Shown here: piece by piece, positions 6,341-52,157 of the stretch
Numbering within the stretch: position 1 is the stretch's first letter
Layout: each line of letters begins with the position of its first letter
Source of the DNA: Branchiostoma lanceolatum
Lineage: Eukaryota > Chordata > Leptocardii > Amphioxiformes > Branchiostomatidae
Assembly: GCF_035083965.1 (NCBI RefSeq)
Contig: NC_089723.1
Span: 29,639,193-29,703,192 of the forward strand
Direction: 5' to 3'
DNA length: 64,000 nt
Translations under genes and position numbers: made by a program
Notes under the pieces: generated by a model
What the model was told of the DNA's origin: nothing
Database searches by the model: none
The model's input: only the letters and a program-made list of their open reading frames with translations

Positions 6341-7336
6341 TACCATCCAAGATGAGAGTGGGGCAGTATGAATTTGGAAAGAAGCTTGGAGAAGGAGCGT
6401 TTGGCAAGGTCTACAAAGGCACGGACGTCACTACTGGCGGCGTTGTGGCCATCAAGCAATTGAAAATTGAGAACCTCAGTCAGCTAGAATGTGCTAAAAA
6501 AGAAGTGGAGCCATTGATTGCACTGCAAGATAAGCCTCATAAGCACATTGTTAAATACTTTCAGGGCAAAGTGGTGCATGGCAGTCTGTGGCTGGTGTTA
6601 GAATATTGTTCAGTGGGAACCCTGAATGATGTTGTAGTGGGACAGCCTGGCTTGTCAGGCTCAGTAAAACTGCGTCTAATGACAGAGATTGCAGACGCAG
6701 TCAGCTTTTTGCAGGTTCCCTGTCAAAGTACTTGATAGTATTTACAGCATGGGGCTACAAAATGTATTGTGACGTATGGGAGGCTCCTCCGAGCGTCGGT
6801 CTAGTAGGCCTAAAAGTGCCCAAAGGAACAAACAGCTTGCCAGCCCAAAGCCTGTGGCGGGTGGTGCTGCTGCAGTTGTTGGCGCATTGAGGGCTATGGG
6901 GATGGTTGGTGGGCCTATTGGGGGTATGGGGATGGTTGGTGGGCCAATTGGGGGTATGGGGATGGTTGGTGGGCAAGTTGGGGGTATGGGGATGGTTGGA
7001 GGGCCTGTTGGGGGTATGGGTGTGGTTGGAGGGCCTGTTGGGGGCATGGGGATGGTTGGAGGGCATGTTGGGGGCATGGGGATGGTTGGAGGGCCTGTTG
7101 GGGGTATGGGTGTGATTGGGGTGCCAGTTGGGGGTATGGAGATGGTTGGAGGGTCTGTTGGGGATATGGGTGTGGTTGGAGGGCCTGTTGGGGGTATGGG
7201 TATGGTTGGAGGGCCTGTTGGGGGTATGGGTGTGGTTGGGGTACCTGTTGGAGCTGTGGTAAATGGGGGTATGGTTGGGGGGCCTGTTGGGGCTGTGGTA
7301 AATGGGGGTTGGGTTGGGATGGGGATGTGGCCTTGA
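6341..7336 (+). pseudogene. Broken STK35/PDIK1L-like kinase with expanded glycine-rich tail
   Basis: This is the left copy of the tandem kinase pair. After an acceptor ending at 6340 and an ATG at 6352, the N-lobe is intact: the P-loop GEGAFGKV and the VAIK lysine, through to a SFLQ corresponding to NFLH in the intact copy. Then most of the C-lobe is missing. Comparison with 10226-11224 shows at least three internal deletions that remove the HRD catalytic loop, DFG and APE; only short islands remain, such as the bases for YKMYCDV near 6755. The tail (RNKQLAS onward, frame of 6776-7336) is out of frame with the N-lobe. A repair by splicing looks unlikely because the only candidate intron is 33 nt and gives the wrong frame. 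If translated, the product would be a 127-residue N-lobe fragment. I call it a pseudogene; an N-lobe decoy cannot be excluded. Confidence 0.78.
6901..7250 (+). repeat. 30-bp minisatellite grown from the glycine-zipper region
   Basis: About eleven and a half units of exactly 30 bp, consensus beginning GATGGTTGGAGGGCCTGTTG, run head to tail; later units vary to TGTGGTTGG. In the tail frame each unit encodes a decapeptide of the type GMVGGPVGGM. The intact paralogue has only a short, unrepeated GALIGGPIGALVGGSVG at the equivalent place. Because the unit is a multiple of three, several frames on both strands stay open, producing long spurious Pro/Thr-rich and His/Pro-rich ORFs on the minus strand. 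Confidence 0.93.
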
Positions 7337-10225
7337 AATGGGTTTTTGGGTGAGGGGCCGAGGTGGACCTGTGGGTGGAGCATTTGCTGGCCTTTTTTCT
7401 ATTACGTAATTGCTATACAGCGTCGATTTGTAATTTCGCTGCATGGGCGTGTGGATAGCAAATTTGTAAAGTATCGTTGGTATTAATGAGCGGATCGGTG
7501 TCTATTATGCTCGTGATCTTTATTGCCCATAGTTTTGTTGTTGTTTAGTGGGTTAATATTGGTTTGATATGTGTTGATCTAATCCTTGGAAACCCAGACT
7601 TCGGGGCTATGCTTGCATAGTGGTGAAGATCACACATGGCAAGCCACTAGAGATCACAGAAAAGTTAGCTTAAAGTGTATGATGTTTAGTTATGGGAATA
7701 CTGTTTTGTCTTTGTTATTGCCCTTCTTTTACTGGTAATGCAAACAAACCGTTGCGTTGTAGTCAAACTACTAATACTGCATTCCGTAATCAGATTGCAC
7801 TAAGAACATGTATGTCTTAAGCTCTGGGGTTGGACCTGATAGTGTCCAAAGATTATTTGATGCTTGATGACATGGATGACAAAGGCCGTTTTGGACACTG
7901 TCAACTTTGAACAAATAGAATATCAAAATGTTTGTAGCTTTCAGATGTAGCAAAATTTCGAATGCAAACTTTGCTAAGTATGAGGTAACGTCAACTGTCA
8001 TAGCTCCATAAGGTAACCTGAGACTGCCACATTAAAACACAGTTTTATCGAGGCCTTCTTAAAGAATGTCATAAACACCTAGATATCTGAAGTGTGCATA
8101 CCTCGGGCATATTAAACTGATACTGTATTAACAAATATCCTTAGATTTGCTTTTTCATTTTGGTGGTCTTAGGATACCCGGTGGAATTATGAAAGTTGAC
8201 ATTACGTGTATTGTATATATGTTTTGTCCTGGAATATATTTTGGTTCTCTCATATAAATTCTAACATAATTCTTATTTGAGAAGTGACACGATCTGTTCG
8301 ATGAAAGATGTTTTGTAGGATTCTAAGTTTATGATTGAAAAAACAATAGAATCAGTCTTAGTATTAGTATAAGTATAAGTATAAGTATATTAATCGTGTA
8401 ATGTTCTAATAAGAACCCCTCAAAATGTATGGAGCTAAGTTAGATTTGCAGTCAACGTTGTAAATATTCACTTTGGCCGAAACAGAAATATTACATTATG
8501 TTAATAGTGATCTCATCAATGATGGATGCAATTTCAAATCTACACACCCTATTTCCTTTTGGTATTATCTATAGCAGTATTTCCATTTGCCTCTAGGTAT
8601 GTTATAAACTTATACCATTCATTGTTCTTACCAATCATGCAATGCGACTGAAGAATAAAATTTTGCTGTGTTAGAATTCACTCGTATTCCTCGTCTATTA
8701 ATTATGTCTTATTAAGTTTTTGACTATTATTTAGTATGACTCACATGAATAACTGCTTGTTTTGGTACCTAGATGTTCATCAAAAGCCTTAAGATGAAAA
8801 ACACTCCAAAGCAAAAATTTTCTAACTTGCTTATGACGTAGAAATAGTCTGTTTATCTTAAATATTTATACAAACATACTTTATGAAAAACAAATATATT
8901 TCTCGAAAGGCCACAAATAGTCTCTGTCAATAAGCAAACGATGCTTAGTAGTCTTGGGGTGTCAGCAGGGTAATCAGAAGAGTAACGACCCCCCCCCCCC
9001 CCACGTCTGCTTGGACATCAAATTTGTTTTGCCAGGCTCGTTCCCGACCAGGAAGGAAGTCCACAATGCACTTTGGTTTCGGGGAGGGACCACTAACGGA
9101 CTGTTCATTGGTAGATATACATGTATAGTGAATCCATGAAAATAATCATCAAACACATTTACCTGTATTTCAAACCTAAAGGTCTTACCCCCACTGCAAA
9201 GCTGGATTTGTCAGGTTTGTTCACGTAAAAAAAGGGAGGTCGACTCAGACAGAAGTCACAAATTACGGTGGACTTTACTTTACTGCGCAACTCGGCTCAG
9301 TGACTGGTCCCTCTCCTTTCCTTGGATGAGCTCAAAAGCCAAAGTTCCCTTTACATGCCGCCGACGGCGACAACAAGTACGGACCGGACAAAACACAGAG
9401 CTCAGTGTGAAGTTATTATCTGGAAAGATAAAGAGAAGGTAAGCATTTGCCCCCTTACTTAGATTTGTACTATATTTTCACATAGAACGTGAGAATCAAG
9501 ACCTGCCCTTTTAAGGTGCATCAAGTAAAGCCACGTCGTTTGGTCACGTACACCTTAACTGGTGCATAATTTCATTGATTAATTACGCACCAGTTAACTG
9601 AGACACATGTTTATGAAAAGTATACTATCAGGTCCTTGTCTAACTGTCTGTGTCTACTGTGTCTCTAGTAATAAGTAAAATTGTGAATCTGTTTGTGAAC
9701 AGGTTGTGACTTCCTGGTGGCGGCTAATGAACATGAGAAGTTGAATATTGACATAAGGCGGTCCACCGAAACAATGGAAACCATGGGAAACACATCGAAA
9801 ACCTTTAGAAATGTCCAAAATACGATGCCATTTGAATAGATATGGGTTGAAGCTTTAACTTTGTAACAACTGGAGCAAATTTGAATGTTGTTTTTTCGGC
9901 TCTAGAGTATGACGTCATGGCGTCAAAATTTATGTACTGCTTTCACTTTCACCAAGTGCTAGATATGGAAAAATTTGATATCACACTGTTCGGCGTTTCT
10001 GTGGTGGAAACTGATTTTGTTAAGTACTAAATGTGACTAAGAGTTTACGTTTGGTAAGGTAAAAACGTATAGTCCCATAGCCATTTTGTGGCCGAAGGGG
10101 CGGGGTTGTTATCCACTGTGTCTAGGGCACGGTATTCGAAGGCGGAGCCCACCCCTCTCCTTCCACCGCCAAAAAATTAATATTGGTAACGACTGGGCGT
10201 TGTTCTCTTTACAGTGCCAACCAAG

Positions 10226-11224
10226 ATGAGAGCTCGAGTGGGGCAGTATGAAGTCGGAGATTTGCTTGGAGAAGGAGCGTTTGGCAAGGTCTACAAAGGC
10301 ACGCACGTCACTACCGGGGGCGTTGTGGCCATGAAACGGTTGAAACTTGAGAATGACAGACAGGTAGAAAGTGCTCAAAACGAACTTAGCCCACTGTTGG
10401 CACTGAAAGATACACCCAATAAGCACATTGTTAAATTCTTTCAGGCTCAACTGATGCATGGTAGCCTGTGGTTGATGTTAGAATATTGTTCAGTGGGAAC
10501 GCTGAATGATTTTCTGCTGGGACATGTGCAGCCTGGCATGTCAGGCTCAGTGAAACTGCGTCTAATGATAGAGATTGCAGACGCAGTCAACTTTCTGCAC
10601 TTTAACAACATCGTCCACAGAGATCTCAAGCCAGATAACATACTGCTTAGTGGCAGCCGTGATAACCCGGTTGTAAAGGTAGCTGATTTTGGATTGGCTA
10701 AAGTTTGTGGTGTCGGAGACGGTTCCCTGTCAGAGTACTACATGTACACTCAGTTTGGTACGCCGTTCTTTCTGGCACCTGAAGTATTTCAAGGGCAAGA
10801 ATACAAAATGTATTGTGACGTGTTCTCAATGGGCGTGATTTTTGTGGCCATGATTGACATGGGCCGGGAGGGAAATACTGTAGTTGCATTCATTAAGGAT
10901 AGAATGGCCGGTGTCAAAGTCCCCATCGGTAGGGCCCTGCTGAACAATCCTCCTCCCAATCTCTCTGCCCACCTTCTAACCAGACAGAAAGGTGGGCCGC
11001 TGAAAAGGCTGTGTCTGTCTATGCTAAGTTTGAACGATCGCGACAGACCTAAGGCTGCCGATGTACTTGGAAGCTTGAGAAGTGTGCAAAGGAACAAACG
11101 GTTAGCGACCGCAGGGACCACAGTGATTGGCGCAGGTGTTGGAGCTTTGATTGGGGGACCTATTGGGGCTTTGGTTGGAGGAAGTGTCGGCTATCTTCTG
11201 AACAAAAAGCTGCTGTCAGGTTGA
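10226..11224 (+). CDS. STK35/PDIK1L-like protein kinase with C-terminal glycine-zipper-like tail
   Basis: A 332-residue protein encoded in one exon. Catalytic landmarks are complete: P-loop GEGAFGKV (residues 15-22), lysine 37 in VAMK, HRDLKPDN (131-138), DFG (154-156) and an LAPE activation-segment end (183-186). The YMYTQFGTPFF segment and the VPIGRALLNNP region resemble the STK35/PDIK1L (CLIK1-like) group as I recall it. Residues 297-332 form a hydrophobic Gly-rich tail (GAGVGALIGGPIGALVGG) ending in a basic NKKLL, a pattern able to insert into or pack on membranes; this tail is not part of the vertebrate family as I know it. A 5' non-coding exon ends at 9438 (donor GTAAGC), and the coding exon starts at 10215, 11 bases before the ATG. 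A GTG four codons upstream is not used as a start here. AATAAA lies at 12256. Confidence 0.88.
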   Translation: MRARVGQYEVGDLLGEGAFGKVYKGTHVTTGGVVAMKRLKLENDRQVESAQNELSPLLALKDTPNKHIVKFFQAQLMHGSLWLMLEYCSVGTLNDFLLGHVQPGMSGSVKLRLMIEIADAVNFLHFNNIVHRDLKPDNILLSGSRDNPVVKVADFGLAKVCGVGDGSLSEYYMYTQFGTPFFLAPEVFQGQEYKMYCDVFSMGVIFVAMIDMGREGNTVVAFIKDRMAGVKVPIGRALLNNPPPNLSAHLLTRQKGGPLKRLCLSMLSLNDRDRPKAADVLGSLRSVQRNKRLATAGTTVIGAGVGALIGGPIGALVGGSVGYLLNKKLLSG

Positions 11225-33900: not shown

Positions 33901-36559
33901 AATAATTGCGCAGGTGATCGTGAATAAGAAAAAGTATCTATATTTCTCTACTCCATTTTTGTATGCAATATTCAAAACAATTCTTTTCGTCTATTTCAGA
34001 CTTTTGGAAACGGGTCGGTGGCGCAGGTGGTGCTGAGTCGTGAGGACAAGGGAACGTTCTTATCCATCAACTGGGCGTACGGTATCGGGGTGGTCATCGG
34101 CGTGTACGCCTCCTGGGGTGTCTCAGGTGAATGAACTGCAGCTTCAGCCGAGTCCAGCTATAGTCTTGGATATATGACTTCTAACGTAGCAGGATTTGAC
34201 ATGTCTTTTGTTTTCCTAAGTTGATCATTTATTTATGTACAGTAACACTCACTGATTCTTTAAACTAGCGGAACGTTCCCATGGATATTCATTAGAATAG
34301 CCCTAAGGTTTCTTTCATATTTTGTCTTTTGCAGAATTGTCTACAGTTCCAGAAGGTCTAAGGATCCTTACATATAATTGCAAAGGAAAATAAGTAAATC
34401 AAAGTATAGATATGCTAGATGTTTCTTGTGTTTTCAGGAGCCCATCTAAACCCTGCGGTATCCCTGACCATGGCAGTCCTGGGGAAGTTACGCTGGGTGT
34501 ACCTGCCGTGTTACGTCATGGCTCAGATGATAGGCGCCTTCTTGTCAGCAGTTTGTGTATACATTGTGTACTATGGTAAGAACGTCATAGTTTTGTATAT
34601 AGATCGTCTGTTGTGGCATTACAAACGTAAAAAAATTGTGTGTACATCGGGTTTTTGTTTCTTGCACAATGTCGACAATGGACTGCGCCGAAATTGTCAG
34701 AACACACAATACTTTTATTACAAATCTTAGTAGTACATGTAATTCTATTACGAGAATCATGTAAACAAGGATTTTAGTGGTCATTCTATTACGAGAAATA
34801 TGTAAACAAAATATCTAGAGATCTTTAACAATGTCAATTCTTTAATGCCAAATAGATGTTCTGGACGATGTTTACTACTAAAAGTATCATAAATAAAATC
34901 CATAATGCAAATGAATAGAAAGAATATGACTTCCCAAAGATATTTATTTATTGTTTAATTCAATATTAATGATGTATTGAGATTTGTTGAAGGTAATACA
35001 ATGTACTACTAAACGTCTTGTACAGATGCATTAGTGAACTTTGACGGCGGGACCCGGGCAGTGCTGGGTGTGAACGGGACCGGAGGAATCTTCTGTACGT
35101 ACCCGCAAGACTACCTGTCCATCGGCAGTGGAGTCCTGGACCAGGTAAGGTGTTAGGGAGGGGGGGGGGGGCTTACCATTACGACTTTGATAATCTTTAG
35201 CCTTTTGATCGGCCTTACGTTTTTTCTGTCACTTGAATTTCCGTTCTATCCCCAAAGAATAAGATAGCTTGGCCCATGCATTTGCTTGTACTTGTAGTGT
35301 CTTGACATAGTACTGATCCTAAGCTCCAAGCAGATGGTTGAAAGGAAGATCGGAACATTTTCTCAGTAAGGACCTTGTGACTTTCGTCGTACGAAGAGCT
35401 TGTGACAATAAATCATATTCGGGACATTGACTTTGCCTTAACTGTTGACGGTTAGAAATCCGGGTAATATAAGATACGCAAGATAAAAGTTACTCAAGCA
35501 ACTGGATGGATCTTGGAAACGGTCAGACAATCTATGTTAATCATTTCTGCTAAAAATTAAATGATCCCGTTTTCGCTTCCCCTGGCAGGTAGTGGGCACT
35601 GCCCTGTTACTCTGCGGTGTCCTGGCTCTGACTGACGCTAAGAACAACAAGGTAACGGCGGGGATGGAGCCGTTACTTGTCGGCCTGCTGGTGTTCGCCA
35701 TCGGGACGTCCTTCGGGTTCAACTGCGGGTACGCCATCAACCCTGCCCGAGACCTGGGCCCGAGGATCTTCACGGCGATGGCAGGCTGGGGCCTGGAGGT
35801 CTTCAGGTAAATTAAACGGGGAAGGGGTAATAAAGGAGGAAACATGGATAGCGCTAGCAATCCGATTTGAGGTAAACTTTAGATTGACATGGATTATACA
35901 GTTGTTTGTTCCACAACCACTTGGCTCGCTCCTGAGGTGTGACAAAAAAGATCATCTGTCAGTGTTTTGGTCGTCCTTCTGCTGCCTTCCTTGGGGATGT
36001 AAAGACTGATTCTATTTTCCACAGCTAGGTGGCGCTGCAGTGACAAGATTGTGGTCCTAAATGTAACTAACCTTGTATTTTCCCCATCCCTCACCATTGT
36101 TCATGACTAGAGTAGATTTTCTGAGTCGTATAGAAGGTCTAGATTAATGTGATTTGTGTTGCAATTTGTATTCATAACTGTGCGCGAGCAACACCAAGTA
36201 TTGCGCAGATTAGTTGAAATACAAGCACACAGGATAAAAGACCGAATTTGTGCATTTTTTATAAAACCACCTGCGCAGACAGAGAGGCGTATTGTGAATG
36301 AACAGCTGGTCATGGGTCTAATGATAATCTTATCAATTCCAGGGCGGGAAACCATTGGTGGTGGGTGCCGATAGTCGGACCGTTGATCGGCGGGCTGGTC
36401 GGGGGTTTGATCTACACGCTGATGGTGGCGCTGCATCATCCAGAGGAAGAAGATAACGAGTCAGTACACGGGTCCCCGGAGCTGCAGGACGTAAAGGTTC
36501 CAGAAGGTGGCGTTGCTAACGCTGCCATGGAGGACTTACATAGCAATACTATAGTGTAA
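30918..36559 (+). CDS. Aquaglyceroporin (AQP3/7/9/10 group)
   Basis: Six exons in phase: 30918-31022 (exon 1b), 34000-34126, 34438-34575, 35026-35144, 35589-35806 and 36343-36559, giving 307 residues; with exon 1a (20106-20318) the product has 343. It is a six-helix MIP channel. Diagnostic features are the first NPA box in GAHLNPAV, the second in GYAINPARD with the Asp typical of glycerol-conducting members, [12 protein letters not shown] after helix 1, and the terminal [14 protein letters not shown]. The extracellular loop has a possible N-glycosylation site (NGT). The cytoplasmic tail is acidic ([14 protein letters not shown]). It should conduct glycerol and water across the plasma membrane. 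Exon 1b has an ATG in an ACCATGG context. Closest vertebrate type by memory is AQP3/AQP9; orthology to one member is not claimed. Confidence 0.92.
31597..31792. mobile_element. 196-bp MITE with GC-rich inverted arms
   Basis: Left arm starts ATGCTTGGGTCACATTTC and runs into CCCGGGGCCCGGCCGGGC; the right arm is the complement with a few mismatches (GCCCGGTCGGGCACCGG, ending TATGACCCAAGCAT). The loop is about 110 bp and AT-rich. No coding potential. Confidence 0.8.
32572..32722. mobile_element. Hairpin MITE (AGCCTGG family), copy 2, diverged
   Basis: Termini TAGCCTGGTATCC and GGTTCCAGGCTA are inverted repeats resembling those of the hairpins at 14352 and 39944. The interior is less palindromic, so family membership is tentative. 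Confidence 0.5.
33278..33356 (+). repeat. Dispersed ~75-bp motif, copy 4
   Basis: AGTTACTCAAGCAACTGGAT, then TTTGAAACAGTCAGACGTTT, CAGACAGCATCCGCTGTCTT and TCGGTGCGTGAC; the best preserved copy. Confidence 0.75.
35488..35532 (+). repeat. Dispersed ~75-bp motif, copy 5, truncated
   Basis: GTTACTCAAGCAACTGGATG followed by GGAAACGGTCAGACAA; the second half is missing. It lies in the aquaporin intron between exons 4 and 5. Confidence 0.65.
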
Positions 36560-38849
36560 ACTTGAGGGTGATGCACAATTGCACATACAAACATGCAAGC
36601 GTTGGTGATGGCTTTAAAACGTTCAGGATCTTAAGCAAATTTCACCAGAACAACAGGCCTGGTCTTCATAATCTATAGATGCAGATAAACCGTGGGGCCA
36701 AGGAAAAAAACTTCTCCATACATCTGCTTGGAGACTAAGATGCAAATGTTGCTTTTGCTCATATGGTCATCTTTTTATCGTTCTTGTCTCTATAGATGCG
36801 ATAGAGTTATCCAGACATAGGGTCTGTATGGTTTATGTAGTGTATAAGTTATGTATAGATAGATATAAGTTATAGATATATGCGACTTAGATGCTAAGTT
36901 CAGACCGTAGGTTGTATACTAATATAATACTGACAGTGAGCTAGGACTGACTAATCCGCAGCATTCGTAGCTATATAAATATATATATAGCAATTACATA
37001 TGTCTTACTGTCATGGAATTCTTTGTGGTCGGTCAGAAGCGATACATTTTCTCTTGGAATGTTGAGCATTGAGCCGTTTCTCCTCCGAAACGCACACGTA
37101 CCACACTTGTGCACATAGTAGAACAGACGCGTCACTACAACGGCAGCCGAGCAGGTATCTCAATGGACTGCGCCATATTGCGAAAGGTATTCGCAAAGTG
37201 GTGCAAAACGGCGAAAATCGGCGCTAGTTTGTCGCCTGAAACTGCGATTTTTTTTCAAATTCAAATTGGCGTTATCTCTGCAAATCCTGTTAATGAATTT
37301 CAATCACTGTAAAGTTACATTGGTTTTTAATTCAGTTGCAACACTGCGATTGCCAATTAAGTAATCCTGTATCTGATTTGGGGCCGTATGTAACATTCCG
37401 GGCGTGGCCATTTTGTTTGTAAAGGTCGCGTATTTTACCCGTGCGTCACACATCAGTGTGACCACAATTGCAAGGGAAAGTTGGCACAAGCTAAATTCGC
37501 AATTTCGCAAAGTTTGCGCAATATCCTAGCGCAATTATGTGCAGTCCAGTGGAATACTCGCTTAAGTTACGTTTAACATACGATTCAAACATCTACCTCC
37601 TATTTTCTGCATTAATAGCTAGTAAGAGCCCACGTAAGGAAATCCCACGTAACAATTTTCTCGCTATATTCGTTCCTAATATGCATATTACTAATAAGCG
37701 ATTAATAATGATAAAGAACTATTTCGCAAGATTTTACATAGTGTTAAACGTTGAAGATACTCATCAATTGTCTGTGCAGATTTATACTTTTGGTGGAATT
37801 TTGAATATTTACATTTTAAGACGATACATATCTTTTCATCAAGATAATTAGAAAATCACTCCCAAATCCTGCACTGCACTATTATAACATCACTTCCTTT
37901 TCTGGAGCTGGTAAAGTGGACCAAATTTGTGTTATCATTTCTTTCATTTAAAAAAAAATAATTTGTACATAGACGTTAGTATATTGTTAGATATCAGTAG
38001 GATCCAAGAAACTGTATTAAAGACATTGAAGTTTCCAATACTTCAGGCAGCGTTGTTTTCAATCCGTGTGTTTGTTCTTAATTTACATTAAAACATATCT
38101 ATAAAACAAGGCAAAGATATCGTAAGTGGGCACTTATATCATATTGTACTGTCTTGTGTACTCAAAACCCCAAAGTAAACCAACAAGTATTGTACGACAA
38201 TGGTAAAACGTTGTACGACGCACAAAGAATTACCCATCGTCTTTTTTTTAATGTCGTAGTGGGTTTGTAAAATGATCGCACGCGCAAAACTGTAGTCTGG
38301 GTTTTATCAGTGTCAAAAGGTCTAGAATTCTTGAAGGCTAGGTTTCCTGACGCAAAATTCTATTTTTACATGCCAATGTCATACATTAATGAATGCCACA
38401 AAACAGCGTTTATTTTGCATAGATAGATGAATCAGTGGTCTAACTTTCTTCCTAGATGTAAGGGAACAAACAAAAAATACTTTCGCCAGGAAACAAAGTG
38501 CCAAATAAACTTTGTATTTAACCACTTGAAACTAATTAATTAAACACTTTATCACTTTGTCTTTGGATTATGTGATGAATGATGCTATCGTTAATCTTTT
38601 CAGATGACTCTTTCAGTGGAACTCCGTGAGGAAAAGACATCGTTTGACAGACAGAAAAATAATCCAACGACCATCGCATAAACTGATGCAATCAGATGAG
38701 GACGTAGCTGATTGGACGACAGGTTGAACCATTACATATCAAAGGTCGTGTATGGATTGAAACACTTTCCGAGTCCATGCAGATGCGGCACGCGGACACA
38801 GTTGGTTGCCGCTGACCTTGGTCTGAAAAGAGACGGTGAAAGTCAGAAA
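36560..38849. other. Intergenic sequence between aquaporin and RPC7
   Basis: AT-rich, with only short featureless ORFs and no inverted-repeat element seen. The aquaporin 3' untranslated region should occupy the left part, though no clear AATAAA is close to the stop. Confidence 0.5.
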
Positions 38850-41800
38850 ATGGGGGGTCGAGGGAGAGGGAGAGGCCGGGGGAAGCCTATGTCGTTTGAC
38901 ATTGAGTCTTTGGGGTTCCAAAATAAAAAGGAGCTACCGAAAAGCAAGGAAGAACCTCCGCCCCTGTATCCCGTGAGTATTAAAGAAAGTTTTTTAGTCA
39001 CAATTTCTGTTGTGACCTTTACGTTGTTAAGTCTTTCGGCAATGTTTAAAGATGTACTTGACAGAATTGTACAAGTTTCTTGTTCAAAACAGGTAATAAA
39101 AGATTGTTATTACGCGTGAATTTCTGATGCATGTATTTTGTACCCTAAAACGAAATGGACTATTCCATTCCCATCATTCTTGATTCAAAATGGCGGCGCC
39201 CAGTGGCAAAATACGGACTACCCAATGTTTACAAACTTTGTTGGGCTGTACCTTGTAATCGCAGACTTTGTACAATCAGATTTTAACTAGGAGAGCTTTT
39301 AGACGAGATGGCGGGACGAGGTCGGGGCAGAGGGGGCCACCGCGGACTGTCGTTCGACCCCGGCGCGTTAGGGTTTGGCAGAGGAGAGGGTCTCCCCCCT
39401 CCCACTCTACAGCCACCGCCGATCTATCCCGTATGTTGACAACACTGTTAGAGTTTACTTTTGTATTGTGTGTTTGCCGTGTTTATTTTCTGTATCAGAG
39501 ATTAACCAAAACATTGAGTTAAACAGTGATTACAATCCTGAGCAAGGAAATATGTGTAAGGTGCCTTTCCCATGGTCAAGGGCACAACAAAATTTGGGAC
39601 CTGCTAGGGACCCTAACCTCGAGACCACCTTGCCACCTGTGCAAAGCACATGTCTTGCATCTATTGTAACCGGAGTATCAAACTGGATTACAGTATTAAA
39701 GTTTTCAGGAAATGTTGTCTGTATTTCCCAGCCCCTGGAGTTCAAGCCTGTCTCCCTACAGGAAGGGGAGGAGGCTGACTACCTGCTGGCTCTCAAACAG
39801 GAGTTCCGTGGATCCATGAGGGAGTCTCCCTACTTCATCAAACCACAGAGTACCAAGAGGGGTACATCATTCAAATCTATTCATAAACAAATTTGTGTCA
39901 CATAACCAGTGCATTACCTCAAGGCACTATTCCACCAGCTTTGTATCCTGGGTGCCATCCGATTACTACCAGGGCCCCTACGACTTGCTACCCTGGAAAA
40001 ATGGCCATGATAAATAATAATAATAAGTAAAGTAAAGTAAGAGTGTAGGAGCCCCGGTAGTAATTGAATGGCACCCAGGCTACTAGTTTTGTACTTTGGT
40101 AAGTATAAGCTGCATAAGACCAGACCCACACCAGATTAGGTAGACTAAGGATTCAGATCTTATTTATGTATATCTTTGTTTGATAACAGGTACACCACCT
40201 TGAGGTGTAACTCACAAGTTTTATGTAGTCTAGTAAGTACAAGCTGCATGAGACTGGTTCAATCCACTTACACCAGGCCGTACCTATTATCAATAACTAT
40301 GGTGGATTCTTAAATGTGCTGAAGATGTGGCTATCCACAAACACAGCACCTCCATCTTAATGTGCGATCAATGGGAGTGACATTCTTTCCAGAAGCATGC
40401 AGGTCAGCTAGCTACAACGGTTGGTATTCAAACTCCAGAGGAAGTATTACTCACCCGTATATCAACCATTATGATTTGTCTCCCGTATTTAAAAGAATTA
40501 ATGATACTTTCAAGATTGTAAGACTTGGCAGTGTTGTATCATAGTGAAAAGCATCAATAGATTCTCTACCTGCATTGCAGATATTGAACGGTACTCAGAC
40601 AAGTATCAGCTGAATGGACAGAACAAAGGCCAGGGCCTTGGCTGGACACCAAGTTAGTAACTGATTATGCTATCTAGCTTGCTACCAGAAACTTTTGATC
40701 TCCAAGATGATTGTGTTTGATGTATAACAATTTAACATAGCATAAAAATGGTTGATGATAACATTACATGTGCAGTCAAAATATGGCAGGAACAAATATC
40801 AGCAACTCTTCATTTTGGCAGGCTGAAGGAATTATAAGTTATGATATTGTGAAAAAATTATGGGTAATGCTGGAGGAAACAAGTTCATTACCATGGTAAC
40901 ATAGGCCTGGCACAGTCACTGTAGTGTTGTTGTTTCCCCCCTGCATTGCCCCTAGTTCCCTGTTTTTCCCAGGCCCACATGCAATGGGATCTGTGAAAAG
41001 GACTATGTTCATTGCTTCATCTTGACTTTAAATTAGAAGTACTTAAGTGCCTTTTGTCTTTTGAACCATTATGCAGATTGGAACACTTTTCCCAAAGAGC
41101 TGAGAATTAGAGAAAAGAAACCCAAGAGATTAAGTAAGTGGCACAGAATATGTTTGTCATAATCTTATATAAAATTATAATCCACATATGTAACTGTCTC
41201 CTAACACTAGGGTCTATACTAGTCAACAGTTACCTTTTGTATTGTACCTATACAAAGTAGCACTATGCAGTAACTTTACAGTCATACAGTAATGCATGCA
41301 GTATTACAACTCATTGTAGAGCCTGTCCAATTTAGTACATATCCTCCTCATATGGAGCATCTACCATGATATCATAATCACAATTATAAACTATAACACA
41401 GTATGTACATTTCTTTGTTTCAGACATAACATCATATGATCCTAAAAATCATTAGTACATTTTTTGTAATTGCTTCTGTGATTCTCATTTCAGAGGTTTC
41501 TGTAAAACCTTCATTGTCAGTGACCAAAGTCAAGGCTAAAGGACAAAAAAGTGATTCAAAAGAGGCAGAGAACAAATTAAAGGTACTTGAAATACTCCCT
41601 ATACAAACATGTATGGTCACACTGTTGCTTCTACAAATGGTTTGATTTCCAGACAGAAGTGCATAGTGGCATATAGTGCCGCAAGTTTCCTTGCTGTTTC
41701 CGTAGCAGTGTATATTTTCATAGGGATGAGTTGCTAGCTCTAAACCTTTAATATGGCCTCCTCGAACACGGGACCCCCATTTTACGTCCCTTTCGAAAGA

Positions 41801-42664
41801 TGATGCAGCCCCAACCAAGATGTCCTGACCCTGGGACTTGAACCAGGGTCTCCTAGTTACGAACAAAATGGAAACAGGATCACAACTGTGAAGCTGCTAC
41901 CAGTTTAGCAACAGGGATGTCCTTCTTTGGACATTGATGTACCTCATTTTCCACAGCAAATCCTGCAGACTGAGGAGGATGGGGATGATGATGAGGATGA
42001 AGATGAGGAGGAGAAGAAGAAGAAGGAGGCTGAGGGGGAGGAGGAGGAAGAGGAGGAGTTCTATGATGACGAGGACATAGAGGAGGTATGGAGATGTCTT
42101 ACTGATGTGCTTTTACTTCTTTCAACTGGGTTTTATACTGTTTAATATAATGATCTGAAAGCATATTTACCCCATCTGTACAGACTTTGTGATGAAGGCC
42201 GACTTCTTGTAAGGAGTTGAAGTGGATGTACAGGGATGAGTCAAAAAGTCATGCAAGTGGTTTTATAACATTTTTTTCATCAAATGAGTTGAAATTTGGC
42301 ACAAAGAGGCACAACAAATTGATATATTTCAGTCTCATATATGTAAGATGTATTCAGATATGTGCCTTTACCTTTGTGACAATTTTTGATACATTCAATA
42401 GAAAAAAATGAGCCTGTTATAAAATCACATGCATTACTTTTTGACTTACCCTTGTATGTGACACATATATGGTAATTTTGTTAATGGTAATTCATAAAGG
42501 GATGTAGTGACTGAATGGTATGAACTTGAATAAACCCATAATTGTGTGACGGTATCCTGGTTTTGTACTTACAGGGGACCGACTATGCCTTGTCATACTT
42601 TGACAATGGAGAGGACTACCTGGATGCTGACGATGATGCTCTGGAAGATGGGCCAGTGTATTAA
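38850..42664 (+). CDS. POLR3GL: DNA-directed RNA polymerase III subunit RPC7 (POLR3G/POLR3GL type)
   Basis: Seven exons in phase with exon 1a: 38850-38972, 39732-39861, 40581-40652, 41077-41133, 41494-41582, 41957-42085 and 42575-42664, giving 229 residues, close to the vertebrate proteins. Family landmarks are an Arg/Gly-rich start, PLEFKPV, the conserved YLLALKQEFRGSMRESPYFI, DIERYSDKYQ, DWNTFPKELRIREKK-like basic stretch, a long Glu/Asp tail with DDDEDEDEEEKKKK, and DYALSYFDNGEDY near the C-terminus. RPC7 bridges the RPC3/RPC6 subcomplex to the polymerase III core in the nucleus. The exon 1b alternative is at 39308. AATAAA lies at 43268. Vertebrates have two paralogues, POLR3G and POLR3GL; the body here looks closer to POLR3GL, so the symbol marks similarity rather than proven orthology. 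Confidence 0.93.
39308..39430 (+). CDS. POLR3GL: RPC7 alternative first exon 1b
   Basis: ATG at 39308 opens 41 codons to a phase-0 GTATGT donor, the same length and phase as exon 1a. Both begin with an Arg/Gly-rich run, then a Phe-Asp motif (SFDPGALGFGRGEGLPP here, SFDIESLGFQNKKELPK in 1a), and end in PPPIYP or PPPLYP before the shared exon 2. Each can replace the other without changing the frame. Spliced together they would not make sense, because exon 1b has no upstream acceptor at its start. Confidence 0.82.
39944..40082. mobile_element. Hairpin MITE (AGCCTGG family), copy 3
   Basis: Arms TATCCTGGGTGCCATCC and GAATGGCACCCAGGCTA, sharing GGGGCTCCTAC-type inner sequence with the hairpin at 14352; an AT-rich insertion in the loop (AATAATAATAAGTAAAG) makes it longer. 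It lies in an RPC7 intron. Confidence 0.8.
41757..41845 (-). repeat. Repeat fragment with B-box-like sequence
   Basis: CCTCCTCGAACACGGGACC recurs, slightly changed, at about 31944-31964. The downstream part on the minus strand reads GACCCTGGTTCAAGTCCC, resembling a polymerase III B box. Possibly a SINE relic; no A box was identified. Confidence 0.3.
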
Positions 42665-44673
42665 AAACTGTCCCACCCCCATTTGAGGCAATAGAACAGC
42701 CCATCCAGGACTAGGATAAGACTGTACCATGTGATTGGACGGTACCATCCTGGGTCATAGGGTTGTCTCAGGGATGAAATGTGTTGTTACCGTTCTCCTA
42801 GAATAACACCTTCTACTTCTGTCCCATCAACAGTACATGTACATTGCAGAATGAGACATAGGTGTTAGATTTGGGCATATGGTCTTGATATGCATTATGA
42901 GACATAGAAATGATTTTGAGTTTGTATTTACTGTAACTTATAAGAGTGCGGATTAAGGTACTGAGTGGAATTGTCAGAATTTTATGCCCAGATATGAACG
43001 GGAGAAAAAGATCAGTGAAGTCTTAAGAACAGTTCTAATACATGAACCAACCTGATGCCTAAAGCAGTGTTTGTCATGTTAGAGATGTTAAACTTTGGAC
43101 TTGTGTATACAACATGCACATGTATGTCAGAACAGCATGAAGGAATCCAAGGGACTGCACTTTGCAAATGAAGTCAATTTGCTTGTCTCTACTTCGTAAC
43201 CCCACATAAAGTATTTTCGCAATCCCGCAGGGGCAGACCCTATTGTATTGTTTTGAATTTTTTTTTAAATAAAAGTATTTCAGGAGGAAAATTTAAGGGC
43301 TCTTTCGTACGGCTGTTACAGATTTTGTGGCAACATATCAAAGAAGAAGGGGCAAACTTCTGAACTCTGCTGTGACTTTTCTTTATTCAGTAAGAACATG
43401 AGCATTCTTTGCCTGAGCCTCAGTTTTATCTCCGAGTTAAATAGGACTACCACAATCACTTGCCAACACATAATGCATGTATTGTTTTGAAATAATGATA
43501 ATCCCAATGTTTTCATATGGATGTCAAAAGAAAGTACTAGTATACAGAAATGCAAGACTTCTTGGAGAGCTTATATCCCAAACACACACATTCACAAACT
43601 TTATGATGCCAGGCGAAAATCAATGTGCACGTGGATGTCATCCATAGAATTAAGATCGGTGTGGCCTAATAACAATTGGAGTGGGCTTTCAGTACTAAGG
43701 ACAGCCTCTTTGCAGAGCAGTAGTTGTGCGATTCGGGTTTGACATCACTGCCACAGAGGCAGAGATATCAAATGTAAGAATCGACTCTCAGTACCAAGGA
43801 TGGCACTAATATTAAATTGAAGTTTATGAGAGTCAGGGACAGACCTTCAGGAACGTGGCTTTTCGGACCAAGGACAGCACTGGTGACGGTACTGAAGCGC
43901 CGCCCAGAGACGGGTAACGGTACTTCAGTTAGGCGAAGACTAAATTGAACAGTGGCCATGGTGGTACAAAAGCGCCGCCCAGTGACGGGTGACGGTAGCC
44001 CAGTCAGGCAAATTCTAATGTTAGCAATGACCTTCACCAAACTATATGTGTGTAACGTTATATATAGTATACACAGCTACTTTTCACATCTTAAATCTTC
44101 TTCCACACAAATTTGCTCAAGTTGTACAAAAATAAAGGACACTGACACCATTGTTTGCCGTTCAACTAGACATTTGACCCCAAGGCCTGATGACGCAGTC
44201 ATGCATATTTAACACCCGGATATTCAAGTTTTCAACCTTTGTTTTGTGTGCTCAGGGGAATTTCCAAACAGTTCCTATTTCTGCTATATTCAACGGTGTT
44301 CTAATGCCCTCTGGAATATTTGTGTAAGCTACCAGTATCGTTCGGGATACGTCTATGCTCAAGGTATTTCTGTGTTGTTGTTTTTTCTGATGGACAGGTG
44401 AACATGAGGGTACGCTGAACAATATGTATGGAAAGCTTTAAAGGGAGGGGGGCGGTAATTTCTGCTCTTCAGCCAGCAGCATCTGTATTCAATACCTGCC
44501 AGTGTCAGTGTACTGTAGACTACTGTACTGTATACATGTAGTGACTATGCAATAAGGCGACAGTCAACGCCATATGACATCAAATTTGATATGGGGTGAC
44601 GGTCAGCTTTCGGACGAGAGGTTGGGGGGAGAGGTATTTTGCAAGAATCCACTAGTACTAGCACTTGGGGACA
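42665..44673. other. RPC7 3' untranslated region and intergenic sequence
   Basis: After the stop comes about 600 bp of likely 3' untranslated sequence ending at the AATAAA. Between 43745 and 44005 a short imperfect tandem repeat shares GAAGCGCCGCCCAGAGACGG / AAAGCGCCGCCCAGTGACGG. No gene is seen. Confidence 0.5.
43268..43273 (+). other. Polyadenylation signal of RPC7
   Basis: AATAAA about 600 bp past the stop codon, in an A/T-rich setting. Confidence 0.6.
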
Positions 44674-46948: not shown

Positions 46949-49900
46949 ATGGAGCAACAGGGCAGTGATACAGGTAGGACTGTTAACAGGGCCGAACCAT
47001 TATGAAACATTTTATGTTTGAACATAGTGATTGCAACATACATAAATTATAATGTGTTTTGTCTGGATCGACTGTTCAGTTGTTCCAAAGAATGGGCATT
47101 GACATATATCAAACATTAATCGCGATAGAATTGATCCGATCGCCGAGTGGATTAATTAAAAGTACGCCGTGATTCGAGTCCGATTGAAGCACGCTGCGTT
47201 TCACAGAAGTATACTATGTAACGCTCGTTAAAGGTCATAGGTTGAGGTCAAAGCTTCGGCATCGCCTCGCTACAACAACTACAAAATGGCGGGAGTCCAC
47301 CAATTTTTGATGATTTTGTAGCTCTGGAGAAGTCTGTAGCCGTGGAAGGGAACGCAATCGGCGGGCTATGATCGCAAGAAGGCGCCGTGAACGACAAAGG
47401 TTTTTGTATATTGACCTAGCTGTAGAACGATCCCCTGGAAAATGTCCTGATTTCGGTGACATTTTCTGAGTTTTGCCTGGACCTCCACCTTGCCCCAGAT
47501 TCCGAATAGGACCTTCGTCTCATCGTGGCCCCACCTGCCTGAAGTTGAAGTGGCTGTATCCGTCTTGCGGGGCATTGTTGACGTTGACAAAACCGTGAGA
47601 ATTGTTGACGTTGACAAAACCGTGAGACTGAGCGATCTGACGTGTGGCGTTTGTTTTCCCGCGCGATGCGAACTATGATCACAGTATACCCGGATGCATG
47701 ACCTCACACCCCCGGAACCAGCCGAAATCCCCGGCAATTAATCGTGGTTTAATCGTGTTTAGCGTTCACACTCGATTTTCGATAGGATTGGATTGGATTG
47801 AATTGAATTGGATTAATCCTCCCCAAACTACCTCCGGAGATGGATAGAAAATAATCCAATCCGAACAATCCGATCGCGATTGGGAGCGTTCACACTGCAA
47901 AAAATCAATCGTGATCGGATCGTTTCTATCGCGATAATACGTTTAATCCGATTAAACTTTTGTGACAGTTTGTTGTCCAGTGCACTATATAGGTTTATAT
48001 TAAACTTCGTATTTTGGAAGGTCAATCACATTTGCAGGCTTTGTAACCAGAAGGAATGTGGTAGCCTGCAGCTCAGACATTTTAGAAGGCGATCGTGATA
48101 TATATATTTATCATCAATGGCATTTTGCAGGAGTTCGTAAGTACTTCTTTTTCATCAAAGAGAAGATCAGCTCAGATTGGAAGGACCTAGCCTTCCATCT
48201 TGGATTTGAGAAACCAGACTCCGATAACATTGACGGCAGAAACCGAGATGACAAGTCTCGCTGTATGGACCTGTTGGAGGGATGGCTCAAGCGCAACGGA
48301 GAGAGAGCCACCATAGAGGTCCTGATGGAGGCTCTGTCTGAAGCAAAGTTACAAAGTACTGTGGACGGACTAAAGAATAAATATGCTGGTAATAATATGG
48401 ACCTCTTACTTATCTGTTATCTGTAATTTACTATCCAAAAGGTTTCTTCCTCTGATATGTAGTATCAATCAAATTTAGCTTTCGCTAGATCTTTATAAGT
48501 CATCAGTGCCTAGGCCTTTAAATTTGAAACCTCAAAAATGCGAGAAAATTTGTAAAAAGAAATGTTAGATACATGTACAAGGTACAAATCCCCAGTCTGT
48601 AGATAAGCCTTGAACACCTGATTGTTTTTAACTGGATTAGTTTTGGACACCAATATACATATATATCTATATATCAAAAACTGACACATCACTGTGCCAT
48701 CTACTCTCTAGAGTTGGGTAAGCTGCAAACCTCAACTAGTCAGCAGAAGAGAAAGGAGAAAAAAGAAGGAAGAACAGAACGTGCAGAGGATTCTTTACTA
48801 GGTAAAAAATAATGTTTATTTTTTAGGACTTACAAACAATATTGTTTCTGTGTCTGATTATTTGAAGGTGTTTTAAGCCTATTCTCACACTGATGAAACT
48901 TTTTTTAATTGAAAGGTAATACGTTTAAACTTAAATGTTTCTTTTCAATTGCAGATACATTCCGTGAATCGGTAAAGAAGTACTATGAGTTGAGGCTGAC
49001 AACATTTAAGCCTCTGATCTGGAATGACGACTTCACACTTACACTTTCCGACATTTTCACGGAGTTAGAGTTGATCCGCGGAAACCGACGTACTTCCCCA
49101 AAAGAAAGTTTCAGTTCAGTAAAAGAAAAGGGAGTAAAGAAACTCAATTCCTCCGACGACTTGTTCAACCGATCAGTCACAGGACGATCCACGGAACCAA
49201 GGTGCATTCTGATTGAGGGGGAAGCAGGAGGGGGGAAGACAACGTTTCTGTCCAAAGAAGCCCTAGATGCCGTCTCGCAGAAAACAGAGCTGGGCAGACG
49301 GCACGACATTGTCCTGTTGATCCGACTCAAGGAGGTGAGAGAAGGGGAGACCATCGAGGAGATGGTGTGCGACCAGTGCGTTCCCGAAACAATTGAAGGT
49401 GTTGGTCAGAGCAAACCCACAGAGTTCATCAGAGCAATCCTACTGAGGAACGAGCCTCGTGTACTCTTCCTCCTAGACGGGTATGATGAGCTGCGGCCTG
49501 AGGCCAGGGCAGCCACACAAGCCATTCCCAAACTGCTGTCTGGCAGGATGTACCCCAACAGCACGACCGTGATCACCTCCCGACCCTCAGCAGGAGTGCA
49601 GCAGTACGCCCGGCCAGACTGTCGTGTGAACATTGTTGGCTTCTCGCCTAGACATGTGAAGAAATACGTGCATCAGTATTTCACAATCACAGAACAAACC
49701 GAGCTAGCATCGGAGCTCATCAGAACTATTGACGGAAATCAGCTTGTTACAGATTTGATGCATACACCGATTTTCCTGACGTTGGTCTGTCTGACGTGGG
49801 AGGAAGACCCAGGTATGGTCTTCCCAGGCACGATGACGGGGCTGTATGACGACCTTCTGAAGTGTCTGACGGAAAAGTATTTTAAGCGGGAAGGAGCGAA

Positions 49901-52157
49901 CATGCCAACAGAAGGAATAACTCAAGACGTTGCTGATTCAATACTGCAGCTAGGCAAGCTTGCGCTAGAGGCACTGCTAAGAAACGAGACTCTGCTTGAC
50001 CTTACTGAAGTAGAGAGAGAAAACGTGAATTGGGATCTGCTTTCAAAGCTTGGTGTGGTATCCTTGGAAATGTCTGCCTCTAAACGGCACCCTAGAAAAC
50101 AGCTGAACTTTTCACACAAGACGATGCAAGAGTTCCTGGCTGGGCGATATGTCGCTCATGCTCTGAAGAGCCAAGACATTGTTAAGCTGCTGCAGCTTAC
50201 CTCCATAAGCAAGGCGCTTGAACACAGTAACTTGCTTCAGTTCACGTGTGGCTGTGACTCAGGGGCGGCACAAGCTGTGATGAAAGAACTGTGCAAGCTC
50301 AGCTACAAGGAGTTGAAAGACTTACAAGCCGATCAACTTGATGAGCTTGACTGGAAATCACCAGTACCAGTAACACCAGAGGTGAAGAAGTCAGCCGAAA
50401 CTTACAGAAGGTTTGTTCTGCTCTGCCTGGGAATCCTGAATGAACGAAAAGAGCCGAATGTGCTACATGCTGTCAGTAGAGCCCTGCGAGTTATGATCAT
50501 CAATCTCAAAAGACATAGTAGACAACATGCTGCCCTTAAGTATTACTTAGAACGCATACAGTCAGAAGACCTTCCAGACAGAATGATACTTTGCATAAGC
50601 TATGGTTATGTTCATGATGAGGTTATTCAACTCCTGGAAAGCACGTTTGTCCGCTCTATTCCAGGTCTGCGGTTAGACTTAAAGATAAGAGATGCGCCGT
50701 TCAGTTCACCAGATCAGACAGCCAGGTTAGTTTCTGTTCTGAAAAATATCCCTGGTCTGAGGGCGCTGGGCCTATTACAGACAGGACTAACACCGTCATC
50801 ACTGCAGTCACTCGTGCAGGGGTACTGCCACATGTCTCTGTTGGAGGAGCTGGGTCTTAGTCATAATCCTGCCCTTGGTGATGCTGGGATGGAAGTTCTT
50901 CAGGTTGGGCTGTCCAGGGTTCCACATCTGGCTGTGCTCCGACTTGGGGAAGTCGGCATGACGGATGTGGGCATGTCATCCCTGGCCCCCAACATAATGC
51001 ACCTGTCGGGACTGAGAGAACTGAATATACGTGTAAATAAGATCGGTTACACCAGGCCGGAATCTCTCACCACCGTTCTCTCCAAGTTCACCGCCATGCA
51101 GGTGTTGGACTTGTGTGACACCTGTATCAGCGCAACAGGAATGCACAAACTGGTCGAAGCATTGCGTCAGTTGACAAGATTGATCAATCTCAGCATCAGA
51201 GATAATAACATAGGAGACCCTGGACTGGAATGCCTGGCCGAAATCCTTCCCAACCTCACAGCCATGAAGGTTTTGATTCTTATGAACACGGCTATCAGTG
51301 ACAGGGGCACATCAGGCCTGGTCAAAGCGCTTCCTCACCTGGTGGAATTACAGGTGCTTGACGTGAGCGGCAATAGAATAGGAGACTCAGGGATTGTCTC
51401 AGTGGTCCAAACACTCTGCCAGCCCAACAGTTTGGACATGGAACAAAACCCATCAAGTGAAAAGAGTCCGACCCCACCTCCTAACTGTAACACCACACTA
51501 CGCGTGCTGCGGATCGGCTTCAACAAGGGAGTAACAGGAGCCGGACTAGAGAGGGTTGCACAGCTCATCGGCGCACTGCCGGCACTTACTGGGCTGGGCA
51601 TGTCTGGTTCCTTGGTCAAACCTGCACATCTGTCTGGCACTGCAGCCATGGCTCTGGCCGAGGCTTTACCCAGACTGCCCGTCCTGGAATGGCTGTACCT
51701 GCAAGGCATCTCCATGAAGACTGCCGGGTTCCAGGCTGTGGCACAGGCTGCCGCGAAGCATCCAACACTGGAGAGGCTGGTGTGAGTACATGCTTCATAC
51801 AACAGTTTCAATTCTGATCATGCAAGTCTACCTGCTAGCTATTTCTATCAGTCTGTTGGTTTCCTTCTCGCGACAAGAAGTTTTGAATGAGAAAAAAGAA
51901 ATAGAATAAAAATTTGGCTCGCCCCTGAGGCGTCGCCAAAAATGTAGAGCTACAAGAATAATTTCGGGTAAATAAGAATATTGTGCAATTTTATCCATCA
52001 GACAGACACGAAAAATATTTTTTTCCGGTGACACCAAGTCTTAAAGATCTGAGTTCATACTGCCTTTGTACATCTTCACTCTTCGATCTGCAGGTACAGC
52101 AGGAGGGGAGTTCCTCAGGGAGCGGACACCAGTGCCAGCTGCTTGAAGTTGTTCTGA
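46949..52157 (+). CDS. DEATH-NACHT-LRR receptor (NLR-like)
   Basis: Five exons in phase: 46949-46973 (MEQQGSDT), 48131-48388, 48712-48801, 48955-51781 and 52094-52157, giving 1,087 residues. Residues 9-90 are a death domain (SDWKDLAFHLGF, LLEGWLKRNGE). A Lys-rich linker leads to a NACHT NTPase with Walker A GEAGGGKTT (about 213-221) and Walker B VLFLLDGYDEL (about 294-304). After the helical region, leucine-rich repeats of the ribonuclease-inhibitor type run from about residue 727 (LEELGLSHNPALGDAGMEVL). NLRs are cytosolic sensors that oligomerise on ligand; a death domain would recruit apoptotic or inflammatory adaptors. The last LRR exon could stop at 51785 without splicing, but the GTGAGT there joins in phase to a short terminal exon. 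AATAAA lies near 52980. Intron 1 holds a transposon. Confidence 0.88.
47111..47944. mobile_element. 834-bp inverted-repeat element, probably PIF/Harbinger-related
   Basis: The left end AAACATTAATCGCGATAGAA and the right end (complement of TTCTATCGCGATAATACGTTT) are inverted repeats, extended by GATCCGATC on both sides. Inside, a minus-strand ORF (47366-47575) encodes a Myb/SANT-like domain; PIF/Harbinger transposons are known to carry such a gene beside their transposase. No transposase ORF is present. GCGTTCACACT occurs twice (47762 and 47886). It lies in intron 1 of the NLR gene. Confidence 0.55.
47366..47575 (-). CDS. Myb/SANT-like domain ORF of a transposon
   Basis: A 69-residue ORF from an ATG at 47575. 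The sequence GRWGHDETKVLFGIWGKVEV followed by the LRKCHRNQDIFQ motif matches the start of the Myb/SANT-like (trihelix) DNA-binding fold, with the first two conserved Trp residues and the helix-2 pattern. The third helix, where a Cys-Arg and Lys-rich run is normal, is replaced by VVHGAFLRS, so the domain is probably truncated or disrupted. It would bind transposon ends in an intact element; here it is most likely a relic. Confidence 0.5.
   Translation of the reverse strand: MPRKTDTATSTSGRWGHDETKVLFGIWGKVEVQAKLRKCHRNQDIFQGIVLQLGQYTKTFVVHGAFLRS

Follow-up and report, generated by a model that had tools for sequence, protein, structure and literature searches.

Two alternative first coding exons predicted for a single RPC7 gene in the lancelet Branchiostoma lanceolatum

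A stretch of 64,000 nucleotides of Branchiostoma lanceolatum DNA (NCBI RefSeq assembly GCF_035083965.1, contig NC_089723.1, positions 29,639,193 to 29,703,192; called here the window) contains on its forward strand a complete gene for the RNA polymerase III (Pol III) subunit RPC7, with exons between positions 38850 and 42664. Two first coding exons, 1a and 1b, of equal length and phase precede one gene body. The two exons are homologous and strongly diverged. Judged from the sequence, it is probable that the pair of alternative first coding exons arose when exon 1 of this single RPC7 gene was duplicated in tandem long ago, an event which was most likely lineage-specific and independent of the vertebrate POLR3G/POLR3GL duplication.

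Structure of the gene

The features of the locus are given in Table 1. Exons 1a and 1b (translations MGGRGRGRGRGKPMSFDIESLGFQNKKELPKSKEEPPPLYP and MAGRGRGRGGHRGLSFDPGALGFGRGEGLPPPTLQPPPIYP, respectively) both end with a complete codon (CCC) and are in frame with exons 2-7. The introns of the six-exon shared body (39732-42664) are of the GT..AG type, and the stop codon is at 42662-42664. With either first exon the predicted RPC7 product is 229 amino acids long, and the two products differ only at residues 1-41. The RG tail, the SFD..LGF stretch and PPPLYP are retained as frame marks in exon 1a, which has, however, a charged linker, KKELPKSKEE.

The start codons of both exons are in a strong context, with A at -3 and G at +4 in exon 1a, and G at both positions in exon 1b, which is preceded by an in-frame stop at 39284-39286. 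On a scale of approximate weights the donor of exon 1a scores 5.5, which is equalled or beaten at 21 of the 438 GT sites between 37 and 44 kb, and the donor of exon 1b scores 2.8, equalled or beaten at 67 of them. A preliminary description of this DNA had proposed paired first exons of 41 codons, and their coordinates, length, phase, donors and shared body were all borne out, as were the RG-rich run, the SFD motif and the PPP(I/L)YP end in both exons. The interchangeability of the two coding first exons before a single RPC7 body, which had also been claimed, agrees with what was found: a start codon, a compatible donor phase and one common acceptor.

Table 1. Features of the lancelet RPC7 locus, in window positions
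Feature	Position	Strand	Remarks
Presumed promoter / 5' UTR of exon 1a	38600-38849	+	Inverted CCAAT (ATTGG) at 38711; weak, pentamer alone
Exon 1a	38850-38972	+	41 codons, 123 nt, phase 0, donor GTGAGT
YY1-like motif AAAATGGCGGC	39187-39197	+	111 nt 5' of the 1b ATG; CCAAT nearby at 39222
Exon 1b	39308-39430	+	41 codons, 123 nt, phase 0, donor GTATGT
Onset of gene-body CpG depletion	39379-39565	.	Change-point fit over 37500-42664; best point 39490; lnL gain 31.6
Shared exon 2	39732-39861	+	PLEFKPV...; acceptor common to 1a and 1b; in PF11705 match
Shared exon 3	40581-40652	+	IERYSDKYQ, conserved stalk-bridge stretch; aligned to human RPC7
Shared exon 4	41077-41133	+	
Shared exon 5	41494-41582	+	
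Shared exon 6	41957-42085	+	Acidic run
Shared exon 7	42575-42664	+	Acidic tail YALSYFDNGEDY..., stop; aligned to human RPC7 C-terminal part

Membership in the RPC7/Rpc31 family

The Pfam family PF11705 is matched with 116.3 bits by the 1a form of the protein, with 119.3 bits by the 1b form and with 102.4 bits by the body without a first exon, all of which lie above the gathering score of 30.2 bits. The family model covers only the residues from 26 (1a form) or 28 (1b form) onward, and neither first exon alone matches a Pfam family. When a shuffled exon 1a was joined to the body (n=5), the score was 101.2-106.0 bits, as against 116.3 bits for the real exon; the corresponding values for exon 1b (n=5) are 102.1-111.8 and 119.3 bits.

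Human RPC7 (POLR3G, 7a6h chain Q) could be aligned by its residues 4-219 with the 1a form (E 2e-33) and by its residues 5-219 with the 1b form (E 5e-35). The alignment is nearly full-length, and takes in the stalk bridge (IERYS.KY), an element of RPC7 named in PMC8837262, and the acidic C-terminal tail. The yeast chains align from residue 63 or 76 only, and exon 1 is therefore not tested by yeast.

Relationship between exons 1a and 1b

Exons 1a and 1b are identical at 21 of 41 residues and at 67 of 123 bases. The identical bases are distributed over the codon positions as 25/41 (first), 27/41 (second) and 15/41 (third), an excess of change at the third position (Fisher p 0.004). The third-position identity is to be compared with the 10.5/41 expected for unrelated letters of the same composition (P 0.08). 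None of 5000 shuffles matched the alignment score of the two exons, and in tblastn searches of the window they find each other with an E value of 5e-11. The next-best match in the window has an E value of only 0.064 for 1a and 0.018 for 1b, the latter being to an RG run at 17862. A third copy of exon 1 is therefore not seen in the window and was rejected. A chance open reading frame is ruled out by the shuffles and the tblastn searches; alleles, a recent tandem copy and an assembly duplicate are ruled out by the third positions. No direct repeat was detected in 38300-39900, and blastn of 38100-39732 against the window returned the self-match only; both searches are too blunt to detect the exon pair itself, and a diverged likeness of the flanks is possible.

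As the third positions look nearly saturated while the first and second positions are retained, the duplication appears to be old and the protein to have been under selection. The estimates of the divergence depend on the method: dN is 0.52 and dS 1.91 by NG86, and dN is 0.84 and dS 0.57 by YN00 (Biopython). Decay was simulated with substitutions and no indels, one copy decaying freely and the other being perfectly constrained. At least 21 identical residues were left in 272-312 of 400 runs at a dS of 0.57, in 272-355 of 400 over the range 0.5-0.57, and in 16-126 of 400 at 0.8-1.0. None of 400 runs left 21 identical residues at a dS of 1.5 or 1.9, in any of four settings. Since the YN00 dS of 0.57 allows free decay, the argument that both copies were under selection depends largely on the older date. 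Of ten core positions that do not vary among 1b, human POLR3G and human POLR3GL (with provisional letters for the last), exon 1a has kept seven. Taken together, the comparison of the two sequences suggests that exon 1 was duplicated in tandem long ago and that the protein has been maintained. No relative encoding RPC7 turned up in collections of viral, bacterial and archaeal contigs, a result that has no bearing on conservation among animals.

Comparison with vertebrate POLR3G and POLR3GL

The comparison involves four sequences, namely 1a, 1b, human POLR3G and human POLR3GL, in 27 ungapped core columns and, for the full exon, in up to 42 columns, which include the low-complexity RG run aligned by hand. 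A solved POLR3GL chain was sought among the structures, and only a POLR3G chain matched. The POLR3GL letters used are provisional; R4 and R8 of this protein are in print (PMC6549136).

The preliminary description likened exon 1b to POLR3GL and exon 1a to POLR3G. The likeness of 1b is supported, on the provisional POLR3GL letters: R4, R8 and the LPPPTLQP linker are present, and 15 of the 27 core residues are identical. Residues G10, P17, P18, T19 and Q21 are common to 1b and POLR3GL and absent from POLR3G. The likeness of 1a did not survive the same alignment with the human N-termini, in which 1a is not specifically POLR3G-like. It shares 12 of 27 core residues with POLR3G and 9 of 27 with POLR3GL, while 1b shares 13 of 27 with POLR3G (BLOSUM62 77, versus 70 for 1a). 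Three residues of 1a, I4, F9 and P23, are found in POLR3G and not in POLR3GL, and two of the three are also found in 1b. Core column 9, for example, is F in 1a, 1b and POLR3G, and I in POLR3GL; I4 is shared by exon 1a with POLR3G only. All informative columns in which the sequences divide two against two pair 1a with 1b (4/4 in the core and 5/5 in the full exon), and none pairs 1a with POLR3G in either alignment.

According to PMC9877311, citing Renaud et al. 2014, the two vertebrate paralogues were separated by gene duplication in a vertebrate ancestor, and RPC7beta (POLR3GL) is nearer than RPC7alpha (POLR3G) to non-vertebrate RPC7. On our reading of the four sequences, 1b looks ancestral and 1a would be a faster copy of the same lineage, with its likeness to POLR3G being mostly due to shared ancestry, a matter that four such short sequences cannot settle.

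The N-terminal tail encoded by exon 1

Through its N-terminus RPC7 makes contact with the clamp of Pol III. The contact overlaps the docking site of MAF1, and RPC7alpha is predicted to make it more strongly than RPC7beta (PMC9877311). PMC8837262 and PMC6549136 state that PRMT1 methylates RPC7beta, and not RPC7alpha, at R4 and R8, and that in yeast the methylation of Rpc31 (R5, R9) promotes its interaction with Maf1 and aids Maf1 repression under stress. Because of this clamp and Maf1 site and of the arginine methylation, exon 1 is the piece suspected of setting the identity of Pol III.

R4 and R8 are present in both lancelet exons. The PRMT1 switch is therefore not split between them, and both are beta-like on that switch. 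In terms of these arginines, exon 1a thus does not qualify as an RPC7alpha type, a form that is without them. The exons differ in the linker that follows LGF, which is QNKKELPKSKEE in 1a versus GRGEGLPPPTLQ in 1b, and in the charged residues of the whole exon (1a, 9 basic and 5 acidic; 1b, 5 basic and 2 acidic).

CpG content and putative promoters

The CpG content falls at or just after exon 1b (Table 1), with 74 of 372 C sites being in CpG before the change point and 24 of 604 after it. The observed/expected ratio is 0.92-1.00 in the non-coding stretches of 38100-39307, including 1.00 in the presumed promoter region of 1a and 0.92 in the interval between 1a and 1b. It is 0.59 in exon 1a (5 CpG), 0.82 in exon 1b (12 CpG), and then drops to 0.25 for the remainder of intron 1 and 0.19 across the span of exons 2-7. 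In most invertebrates, gene-body methylation is reported to be a mark of genes with constant and high transcription (PMC11292947). For an animal with gene-body methylation, the pattern fits a gene that is transcribed in the germline and has an unmethylated 5' part ending at or just after exon 1b. The use of 1b as a constitutive start agrees with this pattern, by which 1a is neither required nor excluded.

Beyond the stop codon, CpG is still depleted in 42665-43300 (ratio 0.29), and the depletion eases after 43300 (0.59). A 3' UTR extending to about 43.3 kb is consistent with these values, and an AATAAA is seen by eye at 43268-43273.

A motif scan of 38300-39500 gave no match to TATA or CACGTG. 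The YY1-like motif upstream of 1b occurs five times in the window, with 0.07 expected, and two of the occurrences (1102 and 26400) belong by eye to one repeat. For these reasons the motif is weak as evidence for a promoter, and it was rejected as firm evidence. The sites at 1102 and 26400, on the reverse strand, lie in near-identical contexts of 92 bases with AATATGGCGGC, which are apparently, by eye, copies of an interspersed repeat.

Proposed use of the two exons and alternative explanations

The following use of the two exons can be proposed. Each exon would have its own start site, and either donor would be spliced to the acceptor of exon 2. Exon 1b, which has the POLR3GL-like and presumably ancestral sequence, would probably serve as the constitutive start. 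Exon 1a would yield a second RPC7, perhaps one that is specific to a stage or tissue. The products would swap residues 1-41, that is, the RG-rich tail with its methylation sites and the stretch whose human counterpart extends to the Pol III clamp close to the site of MAF1. It is conceivable, though rather doubtful, that an invertebrate makes two forms of Pol III by the choice of a first exon that exchanges the tail facing the clamp and MAF1, a one-gene switch of Pol III identity and an independent counterpart of POLR3G/POLR3GL. A functional equivalence to the vertebrate pair by means of two promoters is no more than possible.

The AG sites upstream of 1b were judged by eye, and only those 3' of 39100. 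No good acceptor for splicing of 1a to 1b is seen among them, and transcripts initiated at 1a would therefore be joined directly to exon 2, passing over 1b. The reading frame of 1b is preserved by the AGs at 39296 and 39308, whose tracts are by eye short and purine-rich; a tandem 1a-1b-body protein made by way of these two sites is formally possible. Use of the AGs at 39291, 39294 and 39303 leads to a stop after 3, 2 and 22 codons, respectively. The AGs at 39265 and 39280 are open and out of frame, with the tract of the former being the least poor by eye. These sites bear on an explanation in which there is one regulated leader, with 1a transcripts that include or read through 1b, thereby tuning translation or decay. 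The in-frame and open AGs and the stops which some sites would introduce are compatible with such a leader; the poor tracts before the in-frame AGs, as well as the resemblance of 1b to a true first exon with an in-frame stop upstream, oppose it and leave it very improbable. A different fate of exon 1a, unlikely in our judgment, is that it is a relic, left unused or trivially used after an old partial duplication, with all RPC7 protein made from 1b. The CpG depletion begins after 1b, and the undepleted interval between 1a and 1b, which nothing marks as a germline gene body, agrees with a relic, although DNA that lies only a few hundred bases from a start may remain free of gene-body methylation anyway. 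The greater divergence of 1a, as seen in its fewer matches to POLR3GL, and a dN/dS above 1 by YN00 are also in its favor. However, exon 1a is open, has kept its length and its strong start context, has a better donor than 1b and retains most of the invariant residues; its third positions look nearly saturated, and simulated free decay at a dS of 1.5 or 1.9 does not leave the observed identity.

The duplication might also be older than supposed here. If the exon pair predates the vertebrates and was present in the RPC7 gene of the ancestral chordate, then after genome duplication the 1a type could have been left in POLR3G and the 1b type in POLR3GL. The summed core BLOSUM62 scores point this way, as the pairs 1a-POLR3G and 1b-POLR3GL give 70+95=165 versus 67+94=161 for 1a-1b and POLR3G-POLR3GL, and so does the I4 residue of 1a. 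The core likelihoods are close, with -206.72 for the grouping of 1a with 1b versus -206.82 for that of 1a with POLR3G under LG, and the former grouping is ahead by 1.2 under JTT and by 0.6 under WAG; the core RELL support under LG is a near tie (0.50 versus 0.46). Over the full exon, in contrast, RELL support is 0.82 for 1a with 1b and 0.08 for 1a with POLR3G. In addition, the informative columns all oppose such a partition, 1b is as close to POLR3G as 1a is, or closer, and the published origin of the paralogues lies in a gene duplication, with RPC7beta nearer to the non-vertebrate protein (PMC9877311). A partition of ancient exons between the vertebrate paralogues is accordingly very improbable.

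Related systems and significance

Alternative first exons that arise from exon duplication are of a known kind, and tandemly duplicated alternative first coding exons are present in UGT1A and in the clustered protocadherins. As in those genes, the first exons of lancelet RPC7 are related to each other and would be spliced, each from its own start, to one shared body. Unlike in those genes, there are only two copies of the first exon in the lancelet, the gene is that of a core polymerase subunit, and it is at this stage a candidate for such use. The fish mitfa/mitfb paralogues have reportedly split the alternative (first) exons of one ancestral gene between them (Altschmied et al. 2002). The likeness to the lancelet case is that alternative exons in one genome are set against paralogues in another; the difference is that the correspondence of exon and paralogue fails for lancelet 1a, both in its shared residues and in the informative columns. 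Neither the 1a/1b pair nor alternative first exons of any Pol III subunit were found described in a literature search that was largely confined to papers outside subscription.

The vertebrate pair POLR3G (RPC7alpha) and POLR3GL (RPC7beta) resembles the lancelet arrangement in that there are two forms of RPC7 whose differences include the tail facing the clamp and MAF1, and in that 1b resembles POLR3GL. The vertebrate forms, however, are encoded by two genes and differ along the whole protein, whereas in the lancelet there is one gene and the difference between its two possible products is confined to residues 1-41. Furthermore, RPC7alpha is without R4 and R8 (PMC8837262 and PMC6549136), and both lancelet exons have them.

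If both exons are used, the lancelet gene would provide, all else being equal, a natural swap of the part of RPC7 that is suspected to govern how far Pol III escapes MAF1. It could then be asked whether the N-terminal tail alone gives Pol III two identities, an effect that the vertebrate paralogues cannot show cleanly, as they differ all along the protein. The use of both exons would also represent a second, independent route to the diversity of RPC7 in animals, by duplication of an exon instead of a gene.

Neighborhood of the gene

In a rough check of synteny, no known neighbor gene of POLR3G or POLR3GL was seen among the Pfam hits, which were obtained for 10 of the 313 stop-to-stop open reading frames of at least 60 amino acids in the window. 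An aquaporin/MIP exon lies upstream of RPC7 on the same strand (34419-34727). Downstream, also on the forward strand, a single open stretch of 958 codons (48909-51782) encodes a NACHT domain and leucine-rich repeats and is NLR-like. Two open frames for protein kinases on the forward strand (6325-6732 and 10190-11221) have similar starts and look like a tandem kinase duplication; the end stretch of the latter frame is weakly similar to glycine zippers. The region at 6.7-7.5 kb is of low complexity and open in several frames. The segment 44860-45390 resembles an inverted repeat, in which phrases such as GGGCATTCGCTAA are seen by eye on opposite strands, and is probably a foldback element or the remnant of a DNA transposon.
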